Origin: Platanthera guangdongensis
Taxonomy: Eukaryota > Streptophyta > Magnoliopsida > Asparagales > Orchidaceae
Direction: 5' to 3'
NCBI GenBank assembly: GCA_039583875.1
Contig: CM077150.1
Location: forward strand, 53,323,451-53,387,450
Length of the DNA: 64,000 nt
Shown here in pieces: positions 1-64,000 of this stretch. The position numbers and the translations under genes were made by a program. The notes below the pieces were generated by a model that worked only from the letters and a program-made list of their open reading frames with translations, was not told where the DNA came from and did not search any database. Positions within the stretch are counted from its first letter, which is position 1. Each line of letters begins with the position of its first letter.

Positions 1-360
1 ACCCTCCATGTACATAATAAGAGTATCCCACATCTCCTTAGCTGTCTTACAGTGTATCAAATTCTGGAAGGTAGCATCATCTATAGCACTCACAATGATG
101 TTCTGAGCCCTCTTGTCCATTGTAGCTAGAACTATCTCATCCTTTGTCATTTCAGAGAAATCCTTAGGTGTTCTCTGATTTGCATCGAAGACTGAAACCT
201 TTATGGGCACATATGGCCCTTCTTTAACTGTGATGTAAATTTTAGGGTCTGAGGCTTCCATAAACAGTCTCACCCTTTCCTTCCAGATGCCAAAAATTTC
301 TTTCCTACAAATGGGTAACTTCATGGATCCCAATTCCTTATGATTCTCAGTAGAACCCAT
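1..360 (-). CDS. gag: Copia gag (capsid) N-terminal part, partial
   Basis: The reading frame is open from an ATG at 360 down to position 1, giving 120 codons, and is cut by the window edge. It begins MGSTENHKELGSMKLPIC and contains the copia gag signatures FGIWKERVRLFMEA and CKTAKEMWDTL, the latter typical of the UBN2/Retrotran_gag region. It is almost identical to the first 120 residues of the gag at 55480. Gag packages the element RNA in cytoplasmic virus-like particles. The start codon lies about 90 bp past the primer binding site, as in the other copy. No break is visible in this portion. Confidence 0.88.
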   Translation of the reverse strand, partial: MGSTENHKELGSMKLPICRKEIFGIWKERVRLFMEASDPKIYITVKEGPYVPIKVSVFDANQRTPKDFSEMTKDEIVLATMDKRAQNIIVSAIDDATFQNLIHCKTAKEMWDTLIMYMEG

Positions 361-450
361 GTTTCTTGATTTTCTTGATTCTGTACTTTACTTAGACTGA
401 ATCTGCCAACAGGATCTTCTCAGACAGTTAAGTCCTTTTTGAGTAACCTC

Positions 451-462
451 CCTCTGATACCA
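451..462 (-). other. Primer binding site, initiator Met tRNA type
   Basis: On the minus strand this reads TGGTATCAGAGG, 2 nt past the LTR end, matching the TGGTATCAGAGC consensus complementary to the 3' end of plant initiator methionine tRNA. Confidence 0.88.
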
Positions 463-739
463 CTTGAAAGATATTGTACCTAATCACCTAGAGGGGGGGG
501 GGGGATGAATAGGTGACTTAAATCTTTTTAACTTTTTAGGCAGAATTCAGATTAATTCTCAGAGTTATAACTACTTTTACCAAGCAATCAAACAACAATC
601 ACAGCAAACCACATACACACAGTGAACACACAGGTTTATAGTGGTTCCCCAATGTTTGGGTACATCTACTTTCCCCCTTCGCCTATCTAGTAGTGTACTA
701 GATTCGGCCAAACTCCTCCACTATCTCAGATCCTCAGAT

Positions 740-940
740 CTTACACTCAGAACCTCAACCAGGTTCCTACAGCTCAGGCCCAAGGACCCACAACTCAGTC
801 TTCTCCAAAGACCTACACTCAGCTTCTTCACAAAGCCTACACTCAGCCACAGCAGGCCTACACTCAGCTACAACAGGCCTACACTCAGAGATACAAATCT
901 CCTACACTCAGGCACACAGGCCCTACACTCAGCCTTTATA
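740..940 (-). repeat. TGAGTGTAGG-type minisatellite within the LTR
   Basis: About seven copies of CTACACTCAG (plus strand) separated by variable 8-15 bp spacers. The matching block in the right LTR lies at 54915-55085. It falls downstream of the TATA box, so in the transcribed R/U5 leader. Confidence 0.75.
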
Positions 941-1338
941 ATTACATGCTTACAAACTCAGATCCCTAAGAATCCTACAAGATAATATGAATACAAAATG
1001 TAAACCCAACAACTCAGAGAAAAGAGAGAAGAGTTGTGAGTTTTTTGATGAGTTCTTGGAAGAACTCAGCTGAAATCAATCTGACTTGGCTTTCTTCAAA
1101 GCTTCTTGAATGTAGAACACAATAAGATTGATCTCCTCTGTAGTTGATCCTTGATCTCTGCTACTTAAGATTCAGAACAAAATCTGAACCCTTCTTCTCA
1201 GCCTGGTTCCAACGGCAGTCTTCTTGGATGGAGCTCTCTCTCTCCAACTACTTGGATCTTCACTAGATTCTTCAAGGAATAGCTAGATCTTCTTTTCTTT
1301 TCAATTACTTGAACAACTGTTTCTGTAGACAGTATAAA

Positions 1339-1350
1339 CCTATATATAGG
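1339..1350 (-). promoter_or_regulatory. LTR TATA box
   Basis: CCTATATATAGG on the minus strand, about 130 bp downstream of the last GTGTCGACAC unit. The right-hand LTR has CCTATAAATAGG at the same place. The transcription start should lie about 30 bp further along the minus strand. Confidence 0.65.
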
Positions 1351-1485
1351 CCTTCTTCATGGTAACCGACTGGTCCGGTTCATAACTGATTTCTGACAAC
1401 TCTGACAGGTGCAGTAGACCGGCTGCAATGGCAGCTGTCAAGTCATCCAGTCAGTTCTTGAAAAATCTGTAACTGTCTGAAAGTG

Positions 1486-2360
1486 TCGAGACTGTCTGTC
1501 TTTAAGTGTCGACACTTATAGACTAAGTGTCGACACAAGTTGTCTAAGTGTCGACACTAGCCTACATGGTGTCGACACAACTCCTTGTGTTGTGGACTTC
1601 ACTTCTCGACACAGCTTCTTTTTCATGTGTCGACACTGATAATGTGTGTCGACACAAGTACTTGTACTTCAGTATATTGCTGAATTCTTGTAAGTGTGGA
1701 CACATCTCCTTTGTGTCGACACATCTTCATGTGTTGAACTTGTTCTGTGTCGACACATCTTCTTGGTGTCGACACATGCCTTCTATGTTGATACTTGCTG
1801 AGTGTCGACACTGCTCCTTGTGTCGACACATTCTTTTTCTGTTGAGACTCTGGCTGAGTGTCGACACATCTCCTTTGTGTCGACACTTGTACTTAGAATT
1901 TTTGTTGAACTTTGCTAAGTGTCGACATTGCTCCTTGTGTCGACATTTTCTTCAAGTGTTGAGTCTTCAGCTGAGTGTCGACACATTCTTTCTTGTGTCG
2001 ACACTTTCTTCAAGTGTCGACTCTTCTGCTGTGTTTCGACACATTGCTTTGGGTGTCGACACTTATACTTAGACTCTGCTGACTTTTGCTGAGTGTCGAC
2101 ACAGCCTCAAAGTGTCGACACTTCCTGATGTAGAAACAGTTTCTCTGGGTGTCGACACAACTGCTAAGTGTCGACACTGCTTCACTGCACTTTACTTTAT
2201 TGAGTGTCGACACAGCTCCTTGTGTCGACACTTTCTGTCTGGTGTCGACTCTGCATCCCTGGTGTCGACACAATCACTCCAAGTGTCGACACTCCTTGCC
2301 TGGGTGTCGACACAAGTCTTCTTAAGTGTCGACACTTTGCTCCTGGGTGTCGACACATGG
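1486..2360. repeat. GTGTCGACAC palindrome array in LTR U3
   Basis: Roughly thirty copies of the 10-bp perfect palindrome GTGTCGACAC, plus decayed versions, spaced about 20-45 bp apart by variable AT-richer sequence. Because the motif is its own reverse complement it creates Cys-Arg-His and Val-Ser-Thr rich open frames on both strands; these are not genes. Some units have lost the CpG (GTGTTGA, GTGTGGA), as methylated cytosine deamination would produce. Confidence 0.9.
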
Positions 2361-2506
2361 ACTTAGAAAATTTTTCATCTTTCCTGTAAATACTTAACCT
2401 ACACAAGGCAACTCAAAATACATCAAATACATTTTGATGTATATCATTGAGTGGGGTGAGGCTTCTTCAAATCAGGTACATTTAAACCAATGTACCCAAC
2501 ACTGTC

Positions 2507-2818: not shown

Positions 2819-2820
2819 AT

Positions 2821-39930: not shown

Positions 39931-39938
39931 TATAAAAG
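39931..39938 (+). promoter_or_regulatory. Family B LTR TATA box
   Basis: TATAAAAG, 250 bp downstream of the motif array. Confidence 0.5.
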
Positions 39939-40787: not shown

Positions 40788-43087
40788 AGGACATGTGCTC
40801 TGGAGCGGGGTGAGACCGACATGGGGTCTAATATGGGACATTAGAGTGGAGCTGGAAGCTTTCCCATTCCTGAGTGAAGTCAAGGGCGCCCTTTTTAGTG
40901 TCTGCCAATAGAGCCCTTGTCGTAGGATTTTTAGAGCCAAGCCTTTCCACCAAAATGCTACTCGCATACGCCCCCGTGTACTTCACGTAAAGCATATTCT
41001 TCTTCAGGTGGGGATATACACTTGAATATGACCTGGAAAAGGTGAGCTTGTAGAGATCATTGGCTATGATGGAGAAAGTGGTAGCACTGATTCGTTGGCA
41101 TCGGGCCTCTATAGGGTCCACTAATAGTTGCCTGCTTTTGAGGCAGGCGATGATGAGGTCCATCTAGCAAGGATCCCCTTCTACGATGTTGGCGATCTCA
41201 TAGGGCCCCGAAATACTGGAACGAGCAAGTCCTTGACTCGAAAGTGTCGGGTTTGGTACCTTGTGCCAGAGTTGGCGAGCTTGGACAGAGCATCCGCTTT
41301 GGTGTTCTGATCAAGAGGAATGTGGAGGATTTGGTGAGATTTTTTCCCAAAGATAAATTTTGTCAGCTAGAGGCATCGTGCGAGTTGCTCGTCTTTTGCC
41401 TCATAGTCTCCCTTGACCTGTGATACTACTAGGTGAGAGTCAGTGTTGATAGTTAAGTTCTCCACCCCACAATGAATTGCTAGGAGAAGTCTGACGATTA
41501 GGGATTCGTACTCCGCGATGTTTTTGATGGTTGGGAACTTCAGATAGAACCTATATTCGAGAACAGCCCCATCAGGACTCGTTAGCAGCAGGCCTATACA
41601 TGCCCCCTTGGTGCCTGAAGCCCGCTGATGTACAAAGTCTGTTGCACGAGAGCCATGCGGTACGAGCTAGGCGCTTCTTTTGGAGGAATATGCTTTCTAC
41701 TATGCAATCAGCTAGGAATTAGGACTTGATGAAGGGCCCTTGCAGTACCGGATGTCGAATTCCCTTATCTCCACTACCTACTTGACTAGCCTTCTTGATA
41801 CCTCGGGCTTCTGCAGGATCGCTCGAAGTGGCAGCGGCGTGAGTACTTTGATAGTGTGGGCCTGGAAGTATCGCCAGAGTTTTCATGCATAGAATACTAG
41901 GGCCAGAGTCATTTTATTTGTCGTGGGATATCTGCTCTCGATATCGGACAAGACTTTTCTAAGGTAATAGACTGGGCGCTGGATCCCCTCTTCGTCTTTG
42001 ACCAAGACCAAGCTGAACGCGTAAGACAAAACTATTAGATTTAGGAAAAGGGCTTTGCCTTTGGTGGGATTTGAGAGTAGTGGGGGAGTGGCCCATTACT
42101 GTTTAAGGTGTTTAAAGGCAGTTTGAAACTTGTTCGTCCATTGGAATCTAGTGTGTCGAGCCTCGAGGAGCGCTTTGAAAAAATGGAGATACTTGTCCCC
42201 AATTCAAGCCAAGAAGCAGGAGAGCACAACTATCCTTATGTTGAGATGTTGAACCCCCTTGATGTTGTGAGGGGGAGACATGTCCTCCAATACTTTAATC
42301 TTTTCGGGTTATCCACTATTCTTTATTGTGTTATCATGAAGCTTAGGAACTTCCCTGCGGTAACCTTGAATGCACACTTGGAATGATTTTGGCATAGTTG
42401 GTAATGACGGAGGAGTTGGAAGCATTTATCTAGGTCTTCTAGGCGGTGGGCCCGTCGGATGCTATTCACTAGCAAGTCGTCGATGTAAACTTCCACGTAT
42501 TACCCGATGAGACTTTGGAACACCAGGTTCACTAGCCTCTAGTAGGCAGCTCCAACATTCTTTAATCTGAAAGGCATTACTGTATAACATTATACTCCTT
42601 TGTCTTTGCGAAAGTAAGTGTGCTCTTCATATTTCGGGTTCATCTGGATCTAGTTGTATGCCTAGTAGATGTCCATGAAGTTAAGGAGTTTGTGCCTGGC
42701 TATTGCATCCACAAGCTGAACGATGCGAGGGAGAGGGAAACTGTCCTTCAGACATGCTTGTTTAAGATTGTTATAGTTGGCACACATCCTCCATTCTACT
42801 GAAACCTTTTTTTTACTATGACCATATTGGCGAGCCAACTGGGGTACGCTGCTTCCGGATGAATCGTGCAACCAAAAGCTTGTCTACCTCTGCCTCGATG
42901 ACAAAAATTCTTTCAGGCATAAAGTTGTGCTTTTTCTGGACCACCGGCCTGCAAGTTGGGTCGATGTCTAGTGTGTGTGTGATGATTTGCAGGTATACTC
43001 CCGGCTTGTACTAGAAATCCATGCAAATATATCTGGTTAGTACGCAAGTAGTTCATGTATTCCCCCTACTCCTCCGGGGAAAAGAGT
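40788..43087 (-). pseudogene. Tat-lineage gypsy pol remnant (RT, RNase H, integrase N-terminus)
   Basis: On the minus strand: end of protease/start of RT (43020-42880: RPVVQKKHNF, VIEAEVDKLL), RT (VEWRMCANYNNLKQACLKDS, PLPRIVQLVDA, VYIDDLLVNS near 42480, KCAFKVTAGKFL), RNase H (41540-41260: AEYESLIVRLLLA, NTDSHLVVSQVKGDYEAKDE, NTKADALSKLANS), then the H2C2 integrase zinc region (41160-40793: NDLYKLTFSRSY, ILRQGLYWQTL, SCQLHSNV-type end). RT and RNase H sequences are of the Tat type (NxNACxKDSFPLPRI). Stops and frameshifts throughout. The family B LTR interrupts it at 40788 and the family C LTR at 43087, so it is older than both. Confidence 0.82.
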
Positions 43088-43639
43088 GATTAAAGTATCT
43101 AGCGTCTACCTAAATCACCTAGAGGGGGTGAATAGATGATGTTTGTGTTTTTTTTGCGTAATAAAATTTCTTAAAAACCAAGCACACAAACAAGAGAGAT
43201 TTATAGTGGTTCCATGTGTTGGGTACGTCCACTTTCCCGCCTCTCCTATCTCCCACTAAGGGGCTGATTCGGCTATTTCACCTTTCTCAGATTACAACGA
43301 ATCTTACACCTCAGAGCCACAACTCATACAACTCGGAGACGACGCTCCTACCACTCAGAGAACAATCTCTCCTAAAACTCGATCCACAACCGTATCTACA
43401 AACTCGATCCACAAACGGATCTACTCACTCGATCAACAAACAGATCTATAAACTCGGAGAAATTATTTCCTACAATCAGTAAAAGAATATTACATAATAC
43501 AAATGATTACAAGTCTTCACACATGTTCTTCGAATAAAATAGATCTTGAATCTTGGAGAACCTGGAGAAATGAAATCTTAAAGACCTTGAATTGTGAACC
43601 ATCAATCTTCGAATGACTTGATCTTGAGGAGTTTGGATC

Positions 43640-43672
<33 letters not shown>
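43640..43672. repeat. (GA)n microsatellite
   Basis: Uninterrupted GA run of about 33 bp inside the family C LTR. Confidence 0.95.
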
Positions 43673-43675
<3 letters not shown>

Positions 43676-43847
43676 AATCCTATCTTGAAAGTCGAAGAAG
43701 ATGAATCTGTGCACAGTAAGTAGTTGGTGGCCGATCTGAATTCGCGAAGTGTGAGGATAAGACCGATGGTTTCACGTTTTGGGAAGTTCTTGTAGATTTA
43801 AAATGTTATCAATAACACGATTAGTATGGAATAAAAATATCCCTATG

Positions 43848-43856
43848 TATTTATAG
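43848..43856 (-). promoter_or_regulatory. Family C LTR TATA box
   Basis: CTATAAATA on the minus strand, about 120 bp downstream of the motif array. Confidence 0.55.
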
Positions 43857-43974
43857 AGATCTTCTTACCAACGGTATAAAAAATTTTCCAACAATGAAAC
43901 CTAAAAACACTGTGCATGCCAACCGAACCCGAGACTGGTTTTTGAAATTATCGGAAAATGACCCAAGTCAAATT

Positions 43975-44575
43975 CATCGAGTATCATCGAGTATCATAAT
44001 GATACTCGTCAAATACATCTTGATATACGACGAAAAGGACTTAGCCAAATCATCCCAGGCCGGCTGGTCACTTAACGCCATGGTGAAGAGACATACTCGA
44101 CGAATTGATCGAGTATTACCTACCATACTCGACGAATTCGTCGAGTATTGGTTAACTGACTCAACGCCGTTACACTCGACACCTGAGTTCACATAACGCC
44201 ATAAGCAGTATTCGACGAATATCATCGAGTTAACTCAACACACTCAACACTTTGATATTCGACGAATAATACTTGGAAAAATCTAGAGAAGTAGCGTCAA
44301 CTGGACTCGACGAATTCGACATGTATCACTTAACATATTCGACAAATTCAGCGAGTACCGTTAGATACATTAGACGAATTTGACGAGTATGAATGATGAT
44401 ACTCGGCGAATTTTACTTAATAGATTTTTCACCGCTTTGGCAAAATTACCCTAGCATAAGAGATGATTCGATGAGTATAGGTAGGTATACACGACGAATT
44501 CGATGAGTATCACGCTGATACTCGACGAATTCGATGAGTATTCCAAACCATACTCGATGAATTATACTTGGGAGA
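43975..44575. repeat. ATACTCGACGAATTCGTCGAGTAT motif array
   Basis: About twenty units of ACTCGACGAAT or its complement, several fused as palindromes (for example GACGAATTCGTCGAGTA at 44130-44146), ~25-40 bp apart. Some have lost the CpG (CTCGATGAAT, TTCGACAAAT). Confidence 0.85.
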
Positions 44576-44870
44576 ATTTCTATCTCTCTAATTCTAAGCC
44601 TTGACCATTCTTGAGTCTTCACTTATACTTGGGATATAAGTACACCCCAATAGAGAGATTACACGTGAGTCAACACTTTGACCTATACAATGAGGAATTA
44701 CATTGTATAATCCTGTGTTTCTGTCCCACTGTAACTTTACATTGCTGTGTACTTAGCAATGAAAACCTGCAAGTACATAATTAAATAACATATCAAATAC
44801 AGTCACAATTCATCTTAGCTTGACCAGACCCTTCTTTAAATCAGGATTATTGTGGATACAATACCCAACA

Positions 44871-44885
44871 ATCTCCCCCTATTTG
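44871..44885 (-). other. Polypurine tract of family C
   Basis: Minus strand AAATAGGGGGAGAT adjoining the LTR start at 44870. The following 200 bp (to 45080) are an AT-rich 3' untranslated stretch with a short TA run. Confidence 0.75.
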
Positions 44886-50201: not shown

Positions 50202-50710
50202 TGAGAATGCTGAATCTGTAATGAACTAGATTTCTGAACTTGGTTGGAGTCGGCGACAGTGTGGTTTCGGGAAAACACCACGAGAAGAAACTGCCGGAAA
50301 TCCTTGCTGAACTGTCGGCTAGGTTTAGGAAGTAGTTCATCGCCCTAATCGAGGAGGAACGAGCCTAGACCATGGAGGAAGAAGATCCAGTTGTGTGGGA
50401 GCCAAATAGTCATGATTTCTGATTCGGCGAGTCGGTTGAGGATTTCATCGAAATTGACTATGTGGTTGCCCCCTAGACTATATATATTAATTTTAAAATT
50501 ATCTAGAAGGCGCGTACCTGAATTCGTGGCTCTTAAGATCCAATATAGTAAGATAGAAATTTTGCATAAGTTGAGTTCGACGAGATTCACTAGATGCAGA
50601 GTCTTATTCGGCGAGTGTACACTGATATCTGATGAATCAGCGAGTTTGTCATCCGATATTCGCCGAATTTACCTTGGAAATTTCCTGCCATTCCAAAGTA
50701 GTTCCTGAGT
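50202..50710 (-). promoter_or_regulatory. Spacer with motif cluster and TATA-like box upstream of the 3' ORF
   Basis: Between the end of RNase H (about 50711) and the 3' ORF the minus strand holds four motifs of the type found in this family's LTR: TTCGACGAG (50576), ATTCGGCGAGT (50606), GATGAATCAGCGAGT (50630) and GATATTCGCCGAATT (50654). A TATATATAG follows at 50479-50487. This looks like an internal promoter; no experimental support is available. Confidence 0.5.
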
Positions 50711-53197
50711 GAGTCCTTCTTCAAGAGTCCATGTTTAGCATGCCTAGTTCCATTTTGAAAAAATGAGAACTTGGCCTCGTACAGTGGCTTCATAAAATTA
50801 TCGCGATCAGCTTGTCCGTCGGGACATAGCTGAGAGCTATGTCTTTGTTCTCCACATGCTCCCGGATGGAGCGATATCGCACCTCTATGCGCTATGTCTG
50901 GTTGTGAGAGACTTGATTATTTGTTATCACTATTGCACTGGATGAGTCGTAATACTTAGTAATTTCCTTGAACTTTAGGTTGTAGTCTTCCAGTTGATTA
51001 CTTATCCATAGAAGCTATGTGCAACAACAACCCGTAGAGATATACTCTGATTCGACAATAGAAGTTGCCACCAATTCTGCTTCTTACTGCTCCATGAGAT
51101 AAGATATCTTCCAAGGAATTGACACATCTCGGAAGTGCTTTTCCTCCCATCCCTGCTTCCTACAAAATCAGCATCTAAAAAACCAATTAGATTGACATCA
51201 TTATTTCTTGGGTACCATAAGCCAAGATTGGGTGTACCTTTAAGGTATCTTAAAATTTGCTTTGCGGCAATGTAATGAGATTCTTTAGAGTTCACCTAGA
51301 ATCTAGTACATACGCATGTTGAAAATATTATATCTGTCTACTGGCAGTGAGGTCGAGCAAGATCCATTATGCTTCTATAATTGGTTTTATTAAAAAGTTT
51401 CCCTTTCTCATCCTTGTCCAGAGACACAGTTGAACCCATTGGAGTCCTCATAGAGGTTGCATTCACCATTCTGAATCTCTTAAGAAGCTCCTTGGTGAAC
51501 TTCATCTGAGAGATAAAAATTTCATCTTCAGATTGTTTCACCTGAAATCCTAAGAAATACTTCAGCTCTCTCATGTTGCTCATTTCAAACTTCCCTTGAA
51601 TAAGTATGGAAAACTTTTTACAAAGGTTGTCTTCCGTAGATCCAAAATAATACAATTGATATAGATTTGCACTAGCATAATCTTGTCTTTTACTTCCCTA
51701 AGAAATAATGTCTTATTTTTCTTTCCTTTGGTGAACTTATTCTCAAAAAAAATCTAGACGTCTCATACCAAGCTCTGGGAGCTTGCTTTAAACCATACAG
51801 AGCTTTATTTAAGAAATAAGCATAATCAGGGAAATTACAATTAACAAAACCTGGGGTTGCGCTACATACACTTCCTTTTTCGGATTCCCTTTGAGGAATG
51901 TTGACTTCACATACATTTGGTAGACGGTGAAGCCTTTGAGGGAAACATATGCAAGAAACAACCTGATCGCCTCGAGCCTAGCCACTAGAGCAAATGTCTG
52001 ATCGAAGTCGATCCCTTCTTCTTGTCTGTATCCTTGAGCAACAAGCCTTACTTTATTCTTGATAATGACTCCATTTTTGTCCAGCTTGTTTCTGAAATTC
52101 CACTTGGTGCCGATCACGTTCTATCCCTTGGGCCTGGGTACCAACTCCCAGACTTTGCAACGTTCAAACTAATTGAGCTTCCCTTGCATTGCCAAAATCC
52201 AAGAAACATCCCATTTTCCTTCTTCAAATTTCTTCAGCTCAACCTGAGATAGAAAACTAAGATGCATAATCTCATTAGCTGTACCACTTTTGGTTCTAAC
52301 TCAGTCACCTAGCTCTCTAATGATTTGATCAACATGGTGATCTCTTAGGTGTCTGAACACAAGATTTCTTCCTCTGTCGCCCGCAGGTTGTACAACATCC
52401 TGCGCATTCTCTGGGGTTGGTTTATCTTGTTGTTCTTCATCCACCAAGCCTAGATCGACGATCTTGACCGAGATTGGAATCTCTTACTTGACAGCTTCAT
52501 CCAAGCTTAGTTACTTGAACCTGGTACCTACATCTGCACCAATAACACTAATTGAGCTGCGTTGCAGCAGGTTTGTCTTATCAAATACGACATTTATTGA
52601 CTCTTATACCACCAGAGTTTTCTTATTGAAAATCCTATATGCCTTACTATGACAACTATAACCTACAAAATACCTTCAAAATATTTTGTTACAAACTTGG
52701 TGCGGTAATACTTAACGAAGCATTTACTTCCAAAGATTCTAAAATAGGACACAATTGATTTTCTGCCCTTCAATAGCTCATAGGGGGTCTTATGATAGCT
52801 TTTGTTGATAAGTGCTCTATTTTGCACGTGACAAGCTGCGTTGACTGTTTCAGCCCATAAGTACTCCAGAAGTGAAGCGTCGTTCAACATAGTTGCACAT
52901 GATTTAATTAGGGTTCTATTCATTCTCCCAGCAACTCCATTTTACTGTGGAGTGCATGGGGAGGAAAACTCATGAAAGATACCTTGACTTTCACAAAAAT
53001 TTTGTCATTGCACCAGTCTAAAACTTTGTTCCATGATCACTTTTGATGTTGACCACTGAGCAGTTCAATTTGTTCTGAATTTGCTGGACAAAATTAGTGA
53101 AAGAATCAAAGGTGTCTGACTTGTGTTTCAGAAAGAATACCAAAATAAAATGCGAGTAGTCATTAACAATTACCAGCATGTAGACCTTACATCCTTG
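50711..53197 (-). pseudogene. Family C copia pol (integrase, RT, RNase H), broken
   Basis: On the minus strand: integrase core from about 53197 (VYMLVIVNDYSHFILVFF, SDHGTKF, then the E-containing region, NRTLIKSCATML, AETVNAACHVQNRA), connector, RT ([52 protein letters not shown] where [10 protein letters not shown] is usual, MRELKYFLGFQVKQ), RNase H ([30 protein letters not shown], then ELGMLNM at the end). The YVDD box region (about 51660) is disrupted. Many frameshifts and stops. Gag, protease and the integrase zinc region are absent past 53197. Confidence 0.84.
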
Positions 53198-53359: not shown

Positions 53360-53502
53360 TGTTGGGTACATTGGTTTAAATGTACCTGATTTGAAGAAGC
53401 CTCACCCAACTCAATGATATACATCAAATGTATTTGATGTGTTTTTGAGTTACTTGTGCAGGTTAAGTATTTGCAGGACTGAAGCAAAAATTTCTAAGTC
53501 CA

Positions 53503-54380
53503 TGTGTCGACACCCAGAGGGAAAGTGTCGACACTTAAGAAGACTTGTGTCGACACCCAGGCAAGCAGTGTCGACACTTGGAGTCATTGTGTCGACACCT
53601 GGGATGCAGAGTCGACACCAGATACAAAGTGTCGACACAAGGAGCTGTGTCGACACTCAATGAAGAAAGTACAGTAAAGCTGTATCGATACTTAACAGCA
53701 GTGTCGACACCTAGAAGAACTGTGTCTACACTAGAAAGTGTCGACACTTGGAGCTGTGTCGACACTCAGCAAAAGTCAGCAGAGACTAAGTATAAGTGTC
53801 GACACCAAGAACAATGTGTCGACACTCAACAGAAGAGTCAACACCTAAAGTAAGTGTCGACACCCAGAACAATGTGTCGACACTCAGCTGAAGACTCTAC
53901 ACTTGAAGAAAGTGTCGACACATGGAGCTGTGTCGACACTTAGCAAAGAACAGAAAGATCATCAAATTATTCTAAGTACAAGTGTCGACACTAAGGGAAT
54001 GTGTCGACACTCAGCTGAAGTCTCAACAGAAGAATCAAGTGTCGACACAAGGAGCTGTGTCGACACTCAGCAAGTATCAACATAGAAGACTATGTGTCGA
54101 CACCAAGAAGCAGTGTCGACACTTAACAGATTCAACACAAGAAGTTGTGTCGACACAAAGGAGATGTGTCGACACTTAGAAGAATTCAGCAAAAGCTAGA
54201 AGATCAAGTACTTGTGTCGACACTCAATTTCAGTGTCGACACATGGAGAAGAATCTGTGTCGAGACATAGTATCTACAACACAAGGAGTTGTGTCGACAC
54301 CTTGTAGACTTGTGTCGACACTTACACAACTGTGTCGACACTTGGTCTATAAGTGTCGACACTTAAAGACAGAAAGTCTC
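53503..54380. repeat. GTGTCGACAC palindrome array, right LTR
   Basis: About thirty exact GTGTCGACAC palindromes, plus variants such as GAGTCGACACC and GTGTCGAGACA. Many are arranged as pairs ~12-16 bp apart (GTGTCGACACaaggagctGTGTCGACAC style). Dispersed rather than strictly tandem. Open frames across it on both strands are by-products. Confidence 0.92.
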
Positions 54381-54515
54381 GACACTTTCAGACAGTTAGA
54401 GATTTTCAAGAATTGACTGGATGACTTGACAGCTGCCGTTCCAGCCGGTCTACAACACCTGTCAGAGATGTCAGAATTCAGTTATGGACCGGACCAGCCG
54501 TTACCATGAAGAAGG

Positions 54516-54527
54516 CCTATAAATAGG
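54516..54527 (+). promoter_or_regulatory. LTR TATA box
   Basis: CCTATAAATAGG, 140 bp after the last palindrome. Transcription expected about 30 bp downstream. Confidence 0.68.
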
Positions 54528-54914
54528 CTCATACAGTTTACAGAAACTGTTGTTCAGATTGTTGTTCAAGTATATGATCAAGTATCAAATCAAGAAGATC
54601 TAGCTGTCTAAGTGCAGATCTAAGAAGTTGGAGAGAGAGGCTCCATCCAAGAAATCAGCCTCTGGAACTAGGCTGAGAAGAAGGGTTCAGATATATTCTG
54701 GATCTTAAGAAGCAGAGGTCAAGGATCAACTGCAGAAGGAGACAATCTTATTCAGTTCTACTTTCAAGAAGCTTTGAAGAAAGCTAAGTCAGATTGAATC
54801 CAGCTGAGTTCTTCCAAGAACTCATCAAGAAACTCTCAACTCCCCTCTCTTGGTTCTGAGTTGTGAGTTATCATTTGTATTATCATTTTTAACTTGTAGG
54901 ATCCTTTGGATCTG

Positions 54915-55085
54915 AGTGATTGTAAGCCTGAAATTATAAAGGCTGAGGGTAGGGCTTGAGAGCCTGAGTGTAGGAGATTGAAATCTCTGAGTGTAGGCCT
55001 TGGTGGCTGAGTGTAGGCCTTGGTGGCTGAGTGTAGGCCTTTGTGGCTGAGTGTAGGCTTTGTGGAAAAGCTGAGTTGTAAGGCT
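54915..55085 (+). repeat. TGAGTGTAGG minisatellite in LTR leader
   Basis: Seven or so copies of CTGAGTGTAGG followed by CCTTGGTGG-like spacers, about 20 bp period at its most regular (55000-55060). Confidence 0.82.
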
Positions 55086-55376
55086 TTGGGCCTGAGGTGT
55101 AGGAACCAGTTTGGGTTCTGAGACAGTGGAGGAGTTTGGCCGAATCTAGTACACTGCTAGATAGGCGAAGGGGAAAGTGGATGTACCCAAGCTTGGGGAA
55201 CCACTATAAAACTCTGTGTCTGCTGTGGTTGTGCTGTGATTGTGAATGCTTGTGTGATTGCTGTGCAAAAGTAGTATAGATTCTGTGATATAACTGATTG
55301 CTGCCATTAAAGTTTCAAAAAGAATTAGGTCACCTATTCACCCCCCTCTAGGTGTTTAGGTACTATATCTTTCAAG

Positions 55377-55388
55377 TGGTATCAGAGG
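55377..55388 (+). other. Primer binding site
   Basis: TGGTATCAGAGG, 2 nt from the LTR end; initiator Met tRNA type. Confidence 0.9.
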
Positions 55389-55479
55389 GAGGTTCCTCAA
55401 AAAGGACTAACAGTCTGAGGAGATCCTGATTGGCAGATTCAGTCTAAGGTAAATTACAGATTCAAGAAAATCAAGAAAC

Positions 55480-56661
55480 ATGGGTTCTTCTGAGAATCAC
55501 AAGGAATTGGGTTCCATGAAATTACCTATATGCAGAAAGGAAATCTTTGGGATCTGGAAGGAAAGGGTAAGGCTGTTTATGGAAGCCTCAGACCCTAGGA
55601 TATACATCACAGTAAAGGAAGGGCCTTATGTGCCCATGAAGATATCAGTTCTAGATGCAAATCAGAGAACTCCAAAGGATTTCTCTGAAATGACTAAGGA
55701 TGAGATTGTCCTAGCCACCATGGACAAGAGGGCACAAAACATTATAGTGAGTGCCATAGATGATGCAACTTTTCAGAATCTAATACACTGTAAGACAGCC
55801 AAAGAGATGTGGGACACTCTTATTGTGTATATGGAGGGTTCTGAAGAAGTTAGACAAGATAGAAAATCCTTGCTAAATCAGGAGTATGAAAGTTTTAGAC
55901 AAGGAAAGGGTGATAGCATAACTGAGTGCTATAAGAAGTTCTACAGAATAGTGAATGAACTCATGTCTTATGGAAGAGAGTTCAGTAATTATGAACTAAA
56001 TGACAAGTTCCTAAGGTCCCTAACTAAAGATTGGGACACAAAGATTTGTGCCATAAGAGAAATGGCTAAGTTGGGAGAAATTCCTCCACCTACACTGTTT
56101 GGCAAGTTATTGTCTTATGAAATGCAATTGACAGTGAGGAAAGAGGAGGAGAAATCAACAAGAACTGAACACAAGGAAAGAACAGTAGCCTTCAAGACAG
56201 AAGCCTCCAGAAAGTGCAGGAATAAGTCACCAACTCCACCTCCAAAGGTAGTTGAATCAGAGTCAGATGAGTCAGTCAGCACAAAGTCTGAAAGCAGTGA
56301 AAGTGATGAAGACTTTGCTGCCTTCACTAGACACTTTCAGAAATTCTTGAAGAAGAAACAATGGAGGACAAGGCCTTCTACTTCAAAAGGAAAAGAAGAT
56401 TTTTATCAGGATAAAAAGGCTTCAAAGAAGGACAGGAAGAGGACTAAATCTAGCAAGGCAACTGGTTCTAAGATAGTGTGCTATTGCTGCAATAGACAAG
56501 GCCATGTTATTGCAGATTGTCCTGAAAAGAGAAAGGAGTCTAGTGACAGGAAGAAGACTCATTTCAAAGGCAAGAAAGAGAAGTCTTTTGTTGCCAAGAA
56601 GAGAAGACTCTATCAGATATCTCTTCTTCAGAAACTGAGTCTGATGCTGAGGCATACATAG
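55480..56661 (+). CDS. gag: Copia gag with zinc knuckle (frameshifted at its end)
   Basis: 393 codons from ATG 55480. Residues 1-230 are the copia gag domain (FGIWKERVRLFMEA, CKTAKEMWDTL, SLLNQEYESFRQGKGDSI, LTKDWDTKICAIREM). A Ser/Glu-rich linker follows (260-290), a Lys-rich basic stretch (300-330), and a perfect zinc knuckle CYCCNRQGHVIADC at about 334-347 for RNA binding. The frame ends at 56661 after a shift near 56605; the original frame continues as SETESDAEAYIGLF into the next ORF. The start is chosen because it lies ~90 bp after the primer site and matches the left copy. The product would form cytoplasmic particles. Confidence 0.9.
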   Translation: MGSSENHKELGSMKLPICRKEIFGIWKERVRLFMEASDPRIYITVKEGPYVPMKISVLDANQRTPKDFSEMTKDEIVLATMDKRAQNIIVSAIDDATFQNLIHCKTAKEMWDTLIVYMEGSEEVRQDRKSLLNQEYESFRQGKGDSITECYKKFYRIVNELMSYGREFSNYELNDKFLRSLTKDWDTKICAIREMAKLGEIPPPTLFGKLLSYEMQLTVRKEEEKSTRTEHKERTVAFKTEASRKCRNKSPTPPPKVVESESDESVSTKSESSESDEDFAAFTRHFQKFLKKKQWRTRPSTSKGKEDFYQDKKASKKDRKRTKSSKATGSKIVCYCCNRQGHVIADCPEKRKESSDRKKTHFKGKKEKSFVAKKRRLYQISLLQKLSLMLRHT

Positions 56662-57305
56662 GGCTGTTTGCTGAAGAAGAAGAAGAAGAATTCATGCAGA
56701 TAATGGAGTCTATTTATGAACAAGAAGACAGTCAATGCCAAGGGCTAATGGCTTTGACAGAGCATGACAAAATCCTGGAGCAGCCAGGACCCAGTAAGGT
56801 ACAAAGTTCAACTCTAAGTTCAGTTTCTTGTTCCAGTACAGAATCAGATTCTTCATCATCAAGTGATGAGAATGTATCTGAGTCTGAGGAAGATATTCAT
56901 CAGCTTATAGATGAATATAAAGTACTGTTGCAAGCTTACAAGAAAAGCAAGTCCCTAGCCAAAAGTCAGGCAAAGGAAATTGCTGATCTTAAAGCTGCTG
57001 CAACAGATTCTGAGAAGCTATTTGATCAAAAGCTAAATGAGATAGCCAGGCTGAAACACATAACAGTGATTCAGATGGGGACTATCACCTTTAAGAATGA
57101 TCAAATCAAGAGTCTGGAGATCAATCTTCAGAAAGAGAGAGAGCTTGTTGCTAGGTTTTCTAAACCTAAGTCAGTGCTACCTTTAATTGATGAATTTGTT
57201 CATCATAAAGGTAAGGCTGGACTGGGTTTTATTAACCTGCAAGGACTGAGCAGTCCAAGTCCAAGTCCAAGGGCAAAGCCCCAACATTCAACAAGTCTGC
57301 TGTAG
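56606..57305 (+). CDS. Gag C-terminal extension, coiled coil (separated by frameshift)
   Basis: Continuation of gag in another frame; the ATG at 56694 is internal. It holds an acidic Ser-rich stretch (SSTESDSSSSSDENVSESEE), then about 100 residues with heptad-like spacing (LIDEYKVLLQAYKKSKSL, KEIADLKAAATDSEKLF, IKSLEINLQKEREL) predicted to form a coiled coil, then a Ser/Pro run. Long coiled-coil gag extensions are known in SIRE-type elements. It ends at 57305 because of a further frameshift. Alone it is unlikely to be translated. Confidence 0.75.
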
Positions 57306-57723
57306 ATAAGACAGCAAAGACAGTACCTAAGCAAAGGTACAATAAGTTTGAATGTTGGTGCTGTGGCAAAGTTGGCCATTTTGCAATGGACTGTTGGCAC
57401 AATGCTAGTGCCAAAGTGAGTAACAAATTACCTGTTGGAAAGCCAGTAGGTAGTTTTGTCAAGTTGCAAACTAACAAGTACCAAGGACCCAAGAATTCTT
57501 TGGGTTCTAAGGTTCATTAATCTGTTTTGCAGGTGAGTCCAAGTGGCCATACCCAACATGGTACTTGGACAGTGGATGTTCCAGACATATGACTGGAACT
57601 AAGAGGATTACTAAAGGACTACATTCCAATAAAAGATGGTCCAAAAGTCACCTTTGGTGGTTCTGAAAAAGGAATCATCAAAGGATTTGGTAACATTTCT
57701 AGCACTTAGTTACCATTACTCAA
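57306..57723 (+). pseudogene. Second zinc knuckle and protease region, frameshifted
   Basis: A second perfect knuckle CWCCGKVGHFAMDC is encoded at 57353-57394. The copia aspartic protease active site follows, WYLDSGCSRHMTG at about 57560-57598, with D-S-G intact. Downstream pieces [16 protein letters not shown] lie in another frame, with a stop at about 57707, and pol resumes at 57724. At least three shifts occur within 420 bp. The protease would process the Gag-Pol polyprotein inside the particle. Confidence 0.82.
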
Positions 57724-60165
57724 GTGGCTTATGTTAAAGGGTTGAAACACAACCTAATAAGTATAAGTCAATTAAGTGATGTAGGGTATGACATCTCATT
57801 TGTTAAAAATGGTTGTCATATCAAGAGGTCAAGTGATCAAGAGATCATTTTGACTGGTTATAGGAAAAGGAATGTCTATTGCTTAGACATTATGGTTGAG
57901 AAAAATGGTTCTCCAGTGTGTCTTGTAGCTGATGAGACAGTCTCTCATTGTGTCAAATGGCACAAGAGGCTTGCCCATCTTAACTACAAGACTATTAGCA
58001 AACTCTTTAGCAAAGATTTAGTGAGGAATGGTCCTCAGGTTAAGTGTGTTAAAGATGGTATTTGCTCAGCTTGTCAAAAGGGCAAGCAGACTAAATCCAC
58101 CTTTAGAAGCATAGAAATCAAAGATGCTGTGAGGTGTTTATACCTCTTGCATATGGATCTCTTTGGTCCAATGTCAGTTCACAGCTTAGGTAGGAAGGTC
58201 TATACCTTTGTAGTTGTAGATGACTACTCAAGGTTTTCCTGGGTGTTCTTCTTAAGACAGAAATCTGAAACACCTAGTGTCTTCCATAACTTTGTCAAGC
58301 AAATTCAGAATGAACTAAACAGTACAGTGGTCAAGATTAGAAGTGACCATGGTACTGAATTTCAGTCTGATAGCATGACAAAACTATGTGAAGACTTTGG
58401 GATATTTCAAGAATTCTCTTCACCTAGAACACCTCAGCAAAATGGCATTGCTGAGAGGAAGAATAGAACCTTGATTGAGGCAGGTAGAACCCTATTAAGT
58501 GATACATCACTGCCAGAGTATTTCTGGGCTGAAGCAGTTAACACTGCATGCCATGTTATAAATAGGGCTACCATCACTAAAGGCCTCAACAAGACCCCCT
58601 ATGAAGTTGTGAAAGGCAGGAAACCAAACCTATCCTACTTCAGGATCTTTGGGTGCAAATGCTTCATACTTAATAATGGGAAGTCTTACTTGACTAAGTT
58701 TGCTGCCAAGTCCCAAGAGGGAATTTTTGTTGGGTACAACAACAACAGTAAGGCTTATAGAGTCTACAACTTGTCTACTCAAGTTGTAGAAGAATCTGTG
58801 CATGTAGTTTTTGATGAGACTAAACTTATTAACAATGAGTTGTCTAGTAGTGTATGCAGCCCCACAGGTTTAACACAGAAGATGGACAAGCTTGCTATAG
58901 AAGAAGACAGTGGCTATTGTCCAGGGGGAGAACTACATGTACCAGTTGCTGATAAAGTTCAAGAAATACAGCATGATGGAGATGCTGAAGAGGTTCAACC
59001 AGAAGTTAGGATGCCTCCAGCCAACAGGCATCTTAGAGATCATCCAATAGAGCAGATTATTGGAGATCCAAGACAAGGAGTACAAACCAGGAGCAGAAAC
59101 ATGAATACAGCAATCTACTCCAGTTTTCTATCTCAAGTTGAACCTAAGAAGTTTGAAGAAGCCATACTAGATCCACAATGGACTGAAGCAATGCAAGAAG
59201 AGCTTAATCAGTTCAAGAGGTGCAAGGTCTGGGAACTTGTTCCTAAACCTAAAGACCACAATATAATAGGAACTAAGTGGATCTACAGGAATAAGATGGA
59301 TGAACAGGGGGTCATCATTAAGAATAAAGCAAGATTGGTTGCTAAAGGATATAGACAAGAAGAAGGTATTGACTTTGATCAAACCTTTGCTCCAGTAGCC
59401 AGACTGGAAGCCATAAGGATGTTCTTGGCCTATGCAACCTATCAAGGATTCAAGGTTTACCAAATGGATGTCAAGTCAGCATTCCTGAATGGTAATCTTA
59501 AGGAAGAAGTCTATGTGGAACAGCCTTCAGGTTTTGTTGATCCAACTCTACCTCATCATGTCTATAGACTTAGGAAAGCTTTATATGGGTTAAAGCAAGC
59601 CCCTAGGGCTTGGTATGAAACCCTATCTAGTTTCCTCATTGAGAACAAGTTCTCAAGGGGGAAAATAGATAAGACTCTATTCCTTAGGGAATCTAGAGGC
59701 AAAGTTATACTAGTCCAAATATATGTAGATGACATTATATTTGGGTCTACTGAAAGCAGCCTTTGCAAAAAGTTTGCAAAACTGATGCAAGGTCAATTTG
59801 AGATGAGTAGTATGAGAGAGCTGAAGTTTTTCTTGGGTCTCCAAGTTAAACAGACTGAGAGTGGTTTATCCATATGTCAGTCCAAGTTCACCCTAGAACT
59901 CATAAGGAAGTATGGTATGGATTCATCCAGCACCATAAAGACTCCTATGGGGTCAAGTATGTCTCTTAGCAAGGATGATGTAGGGAAACCTGTAGATGAA
60001 ACCTTGTATAGAGGGATAGTTGGCTCCCTATTATACTTGACTGCTAGTAGACCAGATATCATGTATGCTACATGTGTCTGTGCAAGGTATCAAGCCTGCC
60101 CTAAAGAGTCTCATTTGACTGCAGTCAAAAGAATACTGAGATATCTAAAGGCACTCCCTATCTAG
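57724..60165 (+). CDS. pol: Copia pol: integrase and reverse transcriptase
   Basis: 813 codons open; position 57724 is a GTG, so the true frame comes from upstream. Order: end of protease ([16 protein letters not shown]), pre-integrase zinc region (WHKRLAHLN ... CSACQKGKQ, residues ~78-125), integrase core with D (LHMDLFGP), D (SDHGTEF) and E ([11 protein letters not shown]) present, GKR-like connector, then RT from ~residue 495 ([57 protein letters not shown], catalytic [23 protein letters not shown]). All catalytic residues I can see are intact. The frame is lost at YLKALP (60165), where RNase H should begin. Confidence 0.95.
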
Positions 60166-60664
60166 GCCTCTGGTACCCTAGGAATGGAGATTTTGAACTA
60201 ACGGTTATTCAGATGCAGACTTTGCAGGATGCAAAGAAGATAGAAAAAGCACTACTGGAACCTGTCAATTCCTAGGTGGGAGACTAATTTCATGGAGTAG
60301 CAAAAAGCAAACCAGTGTGGCTATCTCCACTGCAGAGTCAGAGTATGTGGCTGCAGGAAGTTGCTGTGCTCAACTTCTGTGGATACAACATCAGCTAGAG
60401 GACTATGGATTTCAGGTAAGTAGAACTCCACTCTTCTGTGATTCTACTAGTGCTATTTCAATAGCTAATAATCCTGTATCTCATAGTAGAACAAAACATA
60501 TTGAAATTAAATATCATTTTCTTAGGGAGCATGTAGAAAGAGAAGATATTTTATTAGAATATGTTAAAACTGATAATCAAATAGCTGATATGTATACTAA
60601 GCCCCTAGAAGAAGCTAAGTTCAATAGATTTAAAATTGAACTAGGAATGATAAACTTAGAGTAA
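60166..60664 (+). CDS. Copia RNase H (frameshifted from RT)
   Basis: After the shift at 60165 the frame resumes with DADFAGCKEDRKSTTGTC (catalytic D in the DADFAG motif), ISWSSKKQ, then from 60317 STAESEYVAAGSCCAQLLWI (E), LFCDSTSAISIANNPVSHSR (D), KHIEIKYHFLREHV and ADMYTKPL, ending ELGMINLE with TAA-type termination at 60662. RNase H removes the RNA strand during reverse transcription. A second small shift lies near 60203. The ATG at 60317 is internal to the domain. Confidence 0.9.
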
Positions 60665-61176
60665 GTTTACAGAATTGAAATTGGCTAAGTAAAAAGGTGT
60701 CGACACATAGACAAGTCTATGTCGACACAGAATAGTGGTGTCGACACTTCAGGAAAAAGGTGTCGACACATCTAGGAAGTTGGTGTCGACACTTCAGAAT
60801 ATTAGTGTCGACACATGTCAAGTAGGTGTCGACACATCCAATGTGGTGTTGACACTTAAGTTTTACTCAAAATTTTCTAAGTAAAGTCTCGACTATGTGT
60901 CGAGTAGAGTGGTGTCGACACATAAACAAGTGTCGACACATAAAATCTGTTGACTAAACTTGTGTCGACACATATGTGTCGAAACATTATAAGTCAGTGT
61001 CGACACTTATTGCCAGTGTCGACACATTGTAAGTTAGCTGTCCCGCCTGTTCATCTTCAAAATTAGAAAGGTATAAATAGGGTTTTGTCTTTGTTTGTCG
61101 ACACGCTTTCAAAGTTTCGAGACCAAACTTCTGTGTCGACATTTCTCTTCTCTCAAGACAAATTCTACAAACCCTA
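60665..61176 (+). promoter_or_regulatory. Internal palindrome array and TATA box: candidate promoter of the 3' ORF
   Basis: The spacer after pol contains about eleven exact GTGTCGACAC palindromes (60696-61024) plus variants, the same motif as in the LTR U3. It then has GGTATAAATAGGG (61071-61082) and a further GTCGACAC, and the first ATG is at 61177, about 105 nt from the TATA box. The order array-TATA-leader copies the LTR promoter layout, while the sequence between motifs is different. A dedicated promoter for the 3' ORF is inferred. Confidence 0.65.
61072..61080 (+). promoter_or_regulatory. Internal TATA box
   Basis: TATAAATAG, identical core to the LTR box at 54518-54526. Confidence 0.6.
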
Positions 61177-64000
61177 ATGACGCCTAAGCTAGAGGAGAAT
61201 GTCAACAAAGGATACGAGCTGGTGCGTGGTGCTTTCGAAGATGCTGATCAGAAATCAAGTCTGTCGTAACCCTAGTAGTCAATTCTGGGTTAGAATATTT
61301 AGTTTCTGATCCTACTAAGATATGGAAGAGAGAGGTACTTGAATTCCTCAACGGAGCCAAAGTGGATGAATCTGGATACAAGATCAAATCCAGAGTTCAT
61401 GGAACAAGGGTTAAGGTATCCCCTAAAAGTCTGAGGAAGATTCTCCAGCTACCAAGAACTCAAGAAGAAGATGAAGTTACTGTTACAAAGACCAGGGAAG
61501 CTCTAACCTGGTGTGGACTTGATCCTAAGATGAAGATAGGTTCTGTTTTCAACCGGAAAGACATGAACAATCAAGGAAAGTTTCTTTCTGAAATTGTGGG
61601 AAAGGTCATTCTCAGCAAGCCAGGAGGGCATGACAGAGTGTCTGCCCATATGTTTGGTCTTATGATAAGGATTATCTTCTCTCTAAACACTGACTGGTCT
61701 ATGATAGTCTATGAGAAGATTAAGGAAAGCTTGAAGAAGCCCAATCTGGGCAGAATCATTAGTCTATACCTAGCTGGTGCCATACCAGAGGTAATGCAAC
61801 AAGCTGCAGGAAGCAAGATAAATCATATGAGAAGGATGGATCTGAGGATCTTTTCTAGATGGGACAGGGTGTTGTCAAAGGAGATGCCAACCCCTAAGAA
61901 GACAGTTACTGAGAAGGAGATTCCTCCAAAGAAGAAGAGAAAGACTGCTCCAATGGCACAAGAGTCCACTAACAGTTCTGAAAGTGAAGAACAGGTTGTC
62001 TTCACTCCAGATGAGCATGAGGAAGAGACTACTGCAAAGACTCCTGCTCCTCAAGAGATTGCTGAGATCCAGGGGGAGCTACCTCAAGCTAGCCCCATCC
62101 ATAAGAATCAAAGCCAGGGGGAGCTTCCAGTTGTAACTGAACCCACTACACTGGAAAGTGAACAAGCCACCACCATCATACTAGAGGTAATCACTGAACT
62201 AAACACTTTGAATTTTACTATGGAAGATACTGATTTGTCTGATGATCATCAGCAACTCCAGCTGGATAGCCAAGTCTCAGATGCTGTCAAAGAAGACACA
62301 TCTACTGTTGTTCAAGTGGTTCCTGATTCAGTGGTTGAAGAGCCTAGAATTTCTCCAGCTCCTTCACCACAAGAATACACCATGGAAGATTTGTTCCTAA
62401 ATCTGGATCAAGCAGATTTTGACATGGACAAAGCTGCTGCTGAAGAAGAGAATGCTGCTGTTGAGGGAGAGCAAGTGCAGAATCTGGAAGAGCCTATAAG
62501 GCAAGAAACTGAGAAGGCACAAGATGTGCAAACTAAAAGGCCTCCTAGCCCTAAGGAGAGGGTGGATATAGCCAGCACCTCTGCCTCAGAAGATGAGGAA
62601 GCTGAAAGGGCAAAGAAAAAGAAACTTTATGTCTTCAGGAGAAGAAGCCAGAGTTACAAGAAGGCTCTCCAAACAGTTGCACCACAGCATATAATTCAAC
62701 CAGCCCCAGCCATTGATTATAGTGCACTGATGGTGGCAATGCAAATCAAGTTGGATGAGCATAGGAAGGCCATAGAGAAATATGTAGATGAAGGGCAAAA
62801 GTCACTCCAGTTTGATCTTGCCCAAGATATCAAGTCTATAAGGTTTGAAATGAACCTTAATAAGAAGGAGATGACTGAATGCTTCCACAAAGGTGGAAAT
62901 GCAGTGGTGTACTTGGAAACACACCAGGAAAAGATAAAGGCCCAAGTGGATGACATAGCATTGAAGCAAGGGTATGTTCTTGAAAATCAGCTAAGGATGA
63001 ATGACAATTTGACTGCTTCCCATAATGCTATTGTCACTGAGTTAAAGAACAAGGCTGCTGAACCTTCTACCTCTACTGCTGCAGTTAAAGCTGATTTGAC
63101 AAAGTATTTCAAGAAGAAATCTCTGCTGTTAAGACTGCTATCCAAGCATCCTAGAAGGCCATATCTGAACAACTTCAAAAGATCAAACCTTTCTTTAAAG
63201 ATGAAATCAGATACTTGGATACTCAAATAAGATTTCAAAAGGATGATGTCAGAGATCATATGGCTAGAGAAGTCATAAAGGGGGAGAGAGTTTTAGTCAA
63301 AGCTAGCTCTGATCATGCCAAATGGATATCTAATTCCATCAGAGATACACTGGGCTATCATCCACTTTGTGATGATGACAATGTTGCTGAATCTGGAATT
63401 CAACCTGCATATCTTGGAGGTGAGCAACCAGAGGTAGCTCAAGTGATCTATCCTCCACCAGATTTTGAAATGGTGCAAGATGATATTCATCACATGTATA
63501 GCCCAACTGAAGGGAAGTCTAATGTTATTCTGGAGAAAGTGGTTCAGCCTATTTCTGAAGCCATGCAAGAGGCACTGCAGAAAGAAGAAGAGACAAGGTT
63601 GTCTGAGAAGAGGTTTAGGGAATAAGTAGAACAAAGGCCAGACTTTGAACAGTGGAGCCCTACCTCTAGGAACATTATATTAACTGCCTGGAAAGCTGCC
63701 AAGGATAATATTCAAGACAGGAACAAGTGGTTCTCTGAAGCTGAATGGAGGAAACATGAATCAAGACAAGAGGCAATTATTCAATACAGAAGGAAGGCAA
63801 AGATGGGAACGCTACCTCCTACTGCCCAGGAGCCTAGCAAGTACTTTCCAAAGCCATACCATTACTTTGAGAGGCAGAAGATCAAAGCTGAAGAGCTTAA
63901 AAAGAAAGATCTAAAAGGCAAGAAGCCTGCTGATGCTGAAACTGCTGATGCTCCTGTCCAAGCTAAAGTTCAAGCTGGCAAAGGAATAGTGATTAAGGAG
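61177..64000 (+). CDS. SIRE-type 3' ORF: plant transposon-protein-like domain, NLS-like motif, coiled coil (frameshifted, partial)
   Basis: ATG 61177 opens MTPKLEENVNKGYELVRGAF, broken by a shift before a TAA at 61267; the main frame then runs to 63230. N-terminal ~200 residues: SGYKIKSRVHGTRVKVSPKS, LSKPGGHDRVSAHMFGLM, INHMRRMDLRIFSRWDR, resembling the 'putative plant transposon protein' domain. A basic PPKKKRKT motif (near 61923) looks like a nuclear localisation signal. An acidic, Glu-rich region follows, then RRRSQSYKKA and a likely coiled coil (62740-63050). After a shift near 63117 the frame continues to a TAA at 63623 and, beyond it, to the window end with SKYFPKPYHYFERQK. No signal peptide or membrane segment is evident, so the usual 'env-like' label is not supported here. 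Confidence 0.8.

Follow-up and report, generated by a model that had tools for sequence, protein, structure and literature searches.

How plant copia retrotransposons express the extra gene at their 3' end is debated. Bousios et al. (2010; PMC2829016) discuss splicing, suppression of a stop codon and an internal promoter, the last of which was proposed in 2002. The question is raised by an element of the orchid Platanthera guangdongensis in which the spacer between the RNase H region and the 3' open reading frame (ORF3) carries palindromic boxes and a TATA box like those of its LTR. Here we analyze this spacer in the window, the stretch of 64,000 nucleotides that was studied as a whole, and in further copies. 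Judged from its motifs and their conservation, the spacer is probably an internal promoter that would be controlled by the same box-binding factor as the LTR and would give ORF3 a separate mRNA.

The element and its two box arrays

The element, which we call element A, is 12,970 bp long and lies on the plus strand, as do all its features below; it starts at 53360 and extends 2,329 bases beyond the window. Its 5' LTR (53360..55374) has the form TGTTGGG...ATCTTTCA; its 3' LTR lies beyond the window, in the excised stretch L006, and the two differ by 20 substitutions in 2,013 aligned bases. This small difference, together with a 5-bp duplication, ACAGT, on both sides of the element, marks a recent insertion. 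The 5' LTR is followed by the Sirevirus-type intervening AGTGG and the primer-binding site TATCAGAGG (55375..55388), a gag ORF (55480..56661, Retrotran_gag_2), a pol piece (57724..60165; gag_pre-integrs, rve, SH3_retrovirus and RVT_2), the end of RNase H (60166..60664), whose frame is broken in this copy, and ORF3, which occupies 61177..64000, continues beyond the window end and is broken after codon 30. The Pfam domains of copia gag, integrase and RT are thus in their usual order. The breaks in the pol/RNase H frame and in ORF3 had escaped an earlier note on this DNA.

The class of the element can be read from the signals described for Sireviruses by Bousios et al. (2010). Their 5' junction is CA/ATTGG (or AGTGG) followed by TATCAGAGC; element A has CA/AGTGG and TATCAGAGG, with one mismatch in the 9-base primer-binding site. 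Their polypurine tract is AGGGGGAG followed by AT/TG at the 3' LTR; here AAATAGGGGGAGATTGTTGGG precedes the 3' LTR in L006, and the identical word is found in a second copy, copy B. A C-rich integrase signal is described about 21 bp before the LTR end; CACCCCCCTCTAGGTG, placed by eye rather than by the published alignment, has its last base at 55354, 20 bp short of the LTR end (55374). A TATA box shortly after the box cluster of the LTR has its counterpart in CTATAAATAG at 54517, 132 bp past the last box. The core of the repeated box (RM) is TCGA in element A instead of CGG-CCG, but CGG-CCG is not an absolute criterion, because it is present in 12 of the 13 published RMs and absent from that of Tnd-1 (PMC2829016). 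Classified by its junction, polypurine tract, integrase signal and TATA motifs and by Pfam matches to copia gag and RVT_2, element A is a Sirevirus-type copia.

In the LTR, 30 exact copies of the box GTGTCGACAC, or 34 when one mismatch is allowed, extend over 53504..54385, and the TATA box TATAAATA follows at 54518..54525. The whole spacer (60665-61176) holds 11 exact boxes and 16 with at most one mismatch. The array upstream of its TATA box (60697..61025) accounts for all 11 exact boxes and for 14 with at most one mismatch. The internal TATA box is the same word, TATAAATA, at 61072..61079, within GGTATAAATAGGG at 61070-61082; it lies 46 bp past the last upstream box and 105 nt before the ATG at 61177. 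Three further boxes are found in the leader near the expected start site (61095..61142), those at 61095 and 61133 with one mismatch and that at 61114 with two. The earlier note had described about 30 palindromes and a TATA box in the LTR, and about 11 palindromes, a TATA box and an ATG some 105 nt on in the spacer, and these counts were reproduced.

With at most one mismatch there are 93 boxes in the whole window, while 100 shuffles gave 1.1 on average and never more than 5. Between the two arrays (55374-60664) and after the spacer (61177-64000) none was found, even with up to two mismatches. Specifically for the TATA box, TATAAATA arises in 0.06% of 5,000 dinucleotide shuffles of 61026-61176, and the looser TATAWAW in 2.1%; since an extra TATAAATAGG occurs in the integrase coding sequence at 58557, the TATA word alone is weak proof. 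The boxes are spaced by about 20 bp in both arrays, with helical phasing that is significant in the LTRs (p 0.0002-0.025) but not in the spacer (p 0.16-0.27). The distance from the last box to the TATA box also differs, 132 bp in the LTR versus 46 bp in the spacer, which counts against an internal promoter. Once the boxes are masked, no similarity longer than 17 bp remains between spacer and LTR. The spacer is therefore not a displaced fragment of the LTR, as the earlier note had also held.

An internal promoter of this kind would work as follows. The spacer would give the element a second promoter for RNA polymerase II, and one factor recognising GTGTCGACAC would bind both arrays. The TATAAATA word downstream of the last spacer box would then direct initiation at about 61103. 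The product would be an ORF3 mRNA with a short leader, separate from the genomic gag-pol RNA.

The spacer in other copies and other elements

Copy B lies on the minus strand at 1..2501, where its 5' LTR with box array and TATA box and the start of its gag are seen; the remainder is in L007. In the LTR array, differences between copies A and B affect 10 of 360 positions within boxes, as against 91 of 530 between them. This contrast survives when the boxes are defined from one copy alone: 4/300 versus 97/590 outside for boxes exact in A, and 2/270 versus 99/620 for boxes exact in B. In the spacer the two copies differ at 7 of 170 positions in boxes, 46 of 260 in the upstream non-box sequence, 13 of 65 in the non-box leader and none of the 11 at the TATA box. 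Because nearly every box holds a CpG, and CpG is as a rule mutable in plants, the survival of the boxes is notable. Copy B itself is inserted into a further Sirevirus-type element (2502-3361), just past the primer-binding site and apparently within gag; the junction of the element that was hit, CA/ATTGG-TATCAGAG, lies near 2808.

To obtain close copies, the genome was searched with the start of the 3' ORF, and 40 of 9,569 candidates were scored. Thirty loci including element A were excised, which with copy B makes 31, and 30 of these show both flanks (L022 was excluded). All 30 readable copies have TATAAATA 103-107 nt before ORF3, all 30 have the ATG, and their spacers contain 13-18 boxes with at most one mismatch, 8-13 of them exact. 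Over the 29 comparisons with A, differences amount to 145/4,860 (2.98%) in boxes, 485/7,608 (6.4%) in the upstream non-box sequence, 4/319 at the 11 TATA bases and 329/11,576 (2.8%) in RNase H. The boxes are thus as variable as RNase H and less variable only than the neighbouring non-box sequence, a result that speaks against an internal promoter. At 61133, where the leader box of A carries a single mismatch, 25 of the 29 other copies have an exact box. Apart from B, every one of these copies shares at least 90% identity with the query; they are therefore young, and they do not count as independent.

More distant loci of the same genome were found in a protein search with P0004, in which 101 of 109,654 candidates were scored; from those 101 we picked by hand 12 places, about 0.9 kb each, that are 55-75% identical to P0004. 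In the spacer, their identity to A is 65-72%. They do not represent 12 families, since they fall into six groups at 90% identity and two at 85%. In 11 of the 12, TATAAAT lies 100-112 nt before the ATG, and L063 has TAAAAATAGG there. The last box precedes the TATA position by 46-47 nt in 11 of the 12 and by 66 nt in L057; there are 8-16 boxes with at most one mismatch, 2-11 of them exact. When the boxes are masked, alignment of these arrays to A nearly vanishes, being limited to a single stretch of 17 bp ahead of the first box in eight loci and absent in four (E <= 0.01), so boxes and spacing persist although the sequence between the boxes has largely changed. The leader does align to A, with 69-94% identity over 16-116 bp. 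The P. zijinensis gene model P0003 continues upstream of ORF3 as GINR...SVDT, in the frame of GGTATAAATAGG...GTCGACAC, which lies 111 nt before the ATG; this part reads as a translated TATA-to-ATG leader, a match that is weak alone (E 0.05 in 64 kb) though it is the top match and in the right place.

The earlier note had held that its idea would fail if the spacer proved variable and motif-free in most family members, and neither the close nor the divergent loci show such a pattern. Its proposal of an internal promoter is the best-supported account, with boxes, TATA box and ATG retained in all 30 close copies and, apart from one TATA and one spacing exception, in the 12 divergent loci; from this arrangement we infer initiation at the predicted site, the separate mRNA and the shared factor.

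Elements with similar LTRs but no ORF3 provide a comparison. Sixteen stretches of 8.9-10 kb were taken around box-rich places; L006 belongs to A and L007 to B, and ORF3 was not found by tblastn in the other 14. As controls we used only L008, L009 and L010, in which both LTRs are recognisable. These have LTR pairs with GTGTCGACAC arrays and Sirevirus primer-binding-site and polypurine-tract words, tblastn gave no match to gag, pol or ORF3, and box clusters were confined to the LTRs, with no internal array. This agrees with the four published Sireviruses that have boxes and no ENV, in which linker boxes are absent (PMC2829016). The three elements are possibly non-autonomous partners under the same regulator.

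A distant bearer of ORF3 (~31% identity, E 1e-29), element D, gives a mixed picture. The 3' LTR assigned to it by order and strand only (43100..44881, minus strand) has 20 ACTCGACGAAT-type boxes, and its spacer (50215..50725, minus strand) has three of this type with at most two mismatches, compared with a mean of 0.28 and a maximum of 2 in 60 shuffles and with one in the spacer of A. No ACTCGACGAAT-type boxes were found in the pol and ORF3 of D, and no GTGTCGACAC in its spacer. These counts are only suggestive of box types being matched between LTR and spacer within one element. The only TATA-like word of the D spacer, TATATATAG, lies about 285 nt before ORF3, so that D lacks the 105-nt layout; this distance and the small number of spacer boxes argue against an internal promoter.

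Boxes of both types also occur elsewhere in the window. At 46480-47060 there are sixteen ACTCGACGAAT-type boxes (shuffle mean 0.53) in an apparently different element that begins TGTCACAACCCGC, so it looks as though this motif occurs in unrelated elements. In the LTR of another Sirevirus-like element (38642-40788), seven GTGTCGACAC boxes with at most one mismatch stand within a AGCTCGACGAA array (39323-39468), as if box blocks had been exchanged between families. The window further contains a 5.9-kb unit in two tandem copies that are 96% identical, with an internal 1.85-kb repeat (13376-25349). In the whole genome (4.25-Gb assembly) GTGTCGACACNNNNGTGTCGACAC is found at 9,722 places, versus 6 for the pattern read backwards. 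In IMG/VR one contig has a box pair (L001), and no relatives of pol were found there.

CpG content, ORF3 and competing explanations

The spacer is also set apart by its CpG content. The body of element A (54560-60660) contains only 3 CpG in about 6.1 kb, while the CpG ratio of the whole window is 0.70. Nearly all other CpG of the element are in the LTR array up to its TATA box and in the spacer up to about 61352, where the CpG-retaining stretch (60701..61352) covers array, TATA box, leader and roughly the first 175 nt of ORF3; outside 60690-61360, the CpG of the internal region are at 60202, 61554 and 63810. Counted over the internal region that was read, the spacer has 20 CpG in 456 bp versus 9 in 8,009 bp for the rest, and six of these 9 are at the start of the 3' ORF. 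The same boundary inside the gene is seen across the copies: all 30 have 6-11 CpG within the opening 184 nt of ORF3, and the following 700 nt hold 0-1 in 29 of 30 and 7 in L041. CAG/CTG is not depleted in gag, and the situation is less clear in pol (CTG 30 versus 43 expected). In our reading, CpG was lost from the body of the element and was protected, or kept by selection, at two places that resemble promoters, the LTR array and the spacer. Selection rather than low methylation may account for the retention.

ORF3 itself is constrained. Comparing B with 7 of 18 other open copies, dN/dS is 0.05-0.07 for the first 600 nt of ORF3, at a dS near saturation, and 0.06-0.09 for RNase H, with 0.22 in one copy that has stops. 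The start of ORF3 is under purifying selection. Synonymous divergence between B and the seven others is 1.57-2.15 in the 3' ORF versus 0.55-0.90 in RNase H (L007, L014-L043), a hint that lineages have exchanged the ORF3 module.

Hydropathy alone was used to look for a transmembrane segment, a trait of Sirevirus ENV-like genes, and none was seen in the ORF3 sequences scanned, which for element A comprise a piece from the window: the highest 19-residue Kyte-Doolittle mean is 1.28 (P0001, P0007, P0002 and the window piece), and 1.10 in P0003. Basic stretches resemble nuclear signals, PPKKKRKT in the window and PPRKKRKT in the P. guangdongensis gene model P0005. Relatives of ORF3 match PF20167 over about 147 residues with E 2e-7 at best, at scores below the cut-off of 45 (17.7 bits for the window piece and 31.4 for the best, P0001). 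For these three reasons we would not call ORF3 an envelope. As to the coiled coil of Sirevirus ENV-like genes, the AlphaFold model of P0001, built with 11 relatives, has long helices at 467-602 (pLDDT mostly 60-78 from residue 491), but the model as a whole is poor (pTM 0.26). All protein search matches among the candidates scored were Platanthera gene models.

The strongest competing explanation is that translation of ORF3 uses an mRNA initiated in the LTR and then spliced, with a donor at 55448 (AAG/GTAAAT) or 60415 (CAG/GTAAGT, 60413..60421 in RNase H) joined to an acceptor 20 nt upstream of the ATG (61157). With splice-site matrix values that we assumed, and that are not fitted to orchids, the RNase H donor is the best of 633 GT sites scored and the leader donor before gag ranks 4th. 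The most pyrimidine-rich tract among the AG sites of 60420-61400 is the acceptor-like TCTCTTCTCTCAAG (61144..61157). The RNase H donor is exact in 26 of 29 copies, the acceptor AG is present in 28 of 29 close copies, and the 12 divergent loci all have an AG at -18. In the protein sequences of two P. zijinensis gene models, P0003 and P0008, the exit from RNase H falls at the corresponding residue, but these models may be ab initio. However, the 55 nt that precede the ATG in copy B contain no AG, and yet this copy keeps the TATA box, boxes and ATG; moreover, splicing leaves the TATA box, the boxes, the 46-47 nt spacing and the CpG stretch unexplained. Splicing has been predicted for the env-like genes of BAGY2 and Athila (PMC2829016). 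We consider this explanation unlikely; promoter and splicing routes could exist side by side.

A second possibility is that the main role of the arrays lies in RNA structure, in being targeted by small RNAs of the host, or in the dimerisation or packaging of RNA, and that the TATA box is incidental. The arrays do give far more stable RNA folds than shuffled sequences do (z of -9.5 in the spacer and -8.5 in an LTR piece), but good folding is expected of any self-complementary box array. LTR palindromes of maize Sireviruses are small-RNA hotspots (PMC5311732, PMC10760457); silencing targets should, however, be lost, and the boxes are instead kept better than their surroundings. An RNA role also predicts neither a TATA box 46-47 nt past the last box nor the CpG kept in the start of ORF3, and we regard it as very unlikely. 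That the spacer array is a passive relic is barely credible: the alike box spacing and the fact that tandem arrays can expand by slippage would suit a functionless tandem expansion, but a copied LTR fragment was rejected on the scant box-masked similarity, the boxes outlive neighbouring sequence between copies, and the three ORF3-less elements have no internal array. Taken together, the sequence evidence favours an internal promoter over splicing, over RNA structure and over an LTR relic.

Relation to known systems

The central idea of the earlier note is already in print, since Bousios et al. (2010) proposed an internal promoter. They reported palindromic boxes in 13 Sireviruses, located upstream of ENV in all nine that have both boxes and ENV (in 77 of 79 linker copies), with CpG islands at the box clusters and a TATA box after the LTR cluster; they support an internal promoter and state that one could not be conclusively identified (PMC2829016). 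In the open-licence literature we found no later paper that identifies such a promoter. The arrays of element A resemble the published RM boxes in that palindromic LTR boxes in high copy number precede a conserved TATA box, boxes precede the 3' gene, and the clusters are CpG-rich. They differ in the core, here TGTCGACA without CGG-CCG, for which Tnd-1 is the published exception; the Vitis RM CGGTCGACCG shares GTCGAC with the box core here. Where that study could not conclusively identify an internal promoter (PMC2829016), an internal TATA box at a nearly fixed distance is present here and is kept. What is new is this internal TATA box, the near-fixed spacing, the copy-level conservation in one genome, the CpG footprint that reaches into the gene, and the TCGA core. 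With a concrete candidate core promoter and a predicted start site, the question of expression can now be decided with RNA data. A single regulator may prove to control the genomic RNA and the extra gene alike, and perhaps also relatives that are non-autonomous.

The protein invites a different comparison. Like the 3' aORF of sunflower Athila, which encodes Transposase_32 (PF20167; PMC11728184), relatives of ORF3 match PF20167 and have basic stretches; unlike Athila, which is Ty3/Gypsy, ORF3 lies in a copia element and all its PF20167 scores are below the gathering cut-off.

By analogy, the nearest working system is the internal promoter of foamy virus, where a retroelement likewise has both LTR and internal promoters; there both answer to one DNA-binding activator, Tas, and the internal promoter drives the gene of that activator itself (tas and bet; PMC4929722). 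Carried over in full, the comparison would make ORF3 a nuclear, element-encoded regulator (an activator or anti-silencing factor) that recognises GTGTCGACAC, with LTR and internal promoter forming a foamy-virus-like feedback circuit, which we think quite unlikely. If it were true, elements that share these LTR boxes but lack ORF3 would be controlled in trans, and elements with another box type, such as the ACTCGACGAAT found in the LTR and weakly in the spacer of element D, would have a matching ORF3. Foamy virus is, however, an unrelated lineage, and the factor proposed here may instead be a host protein.
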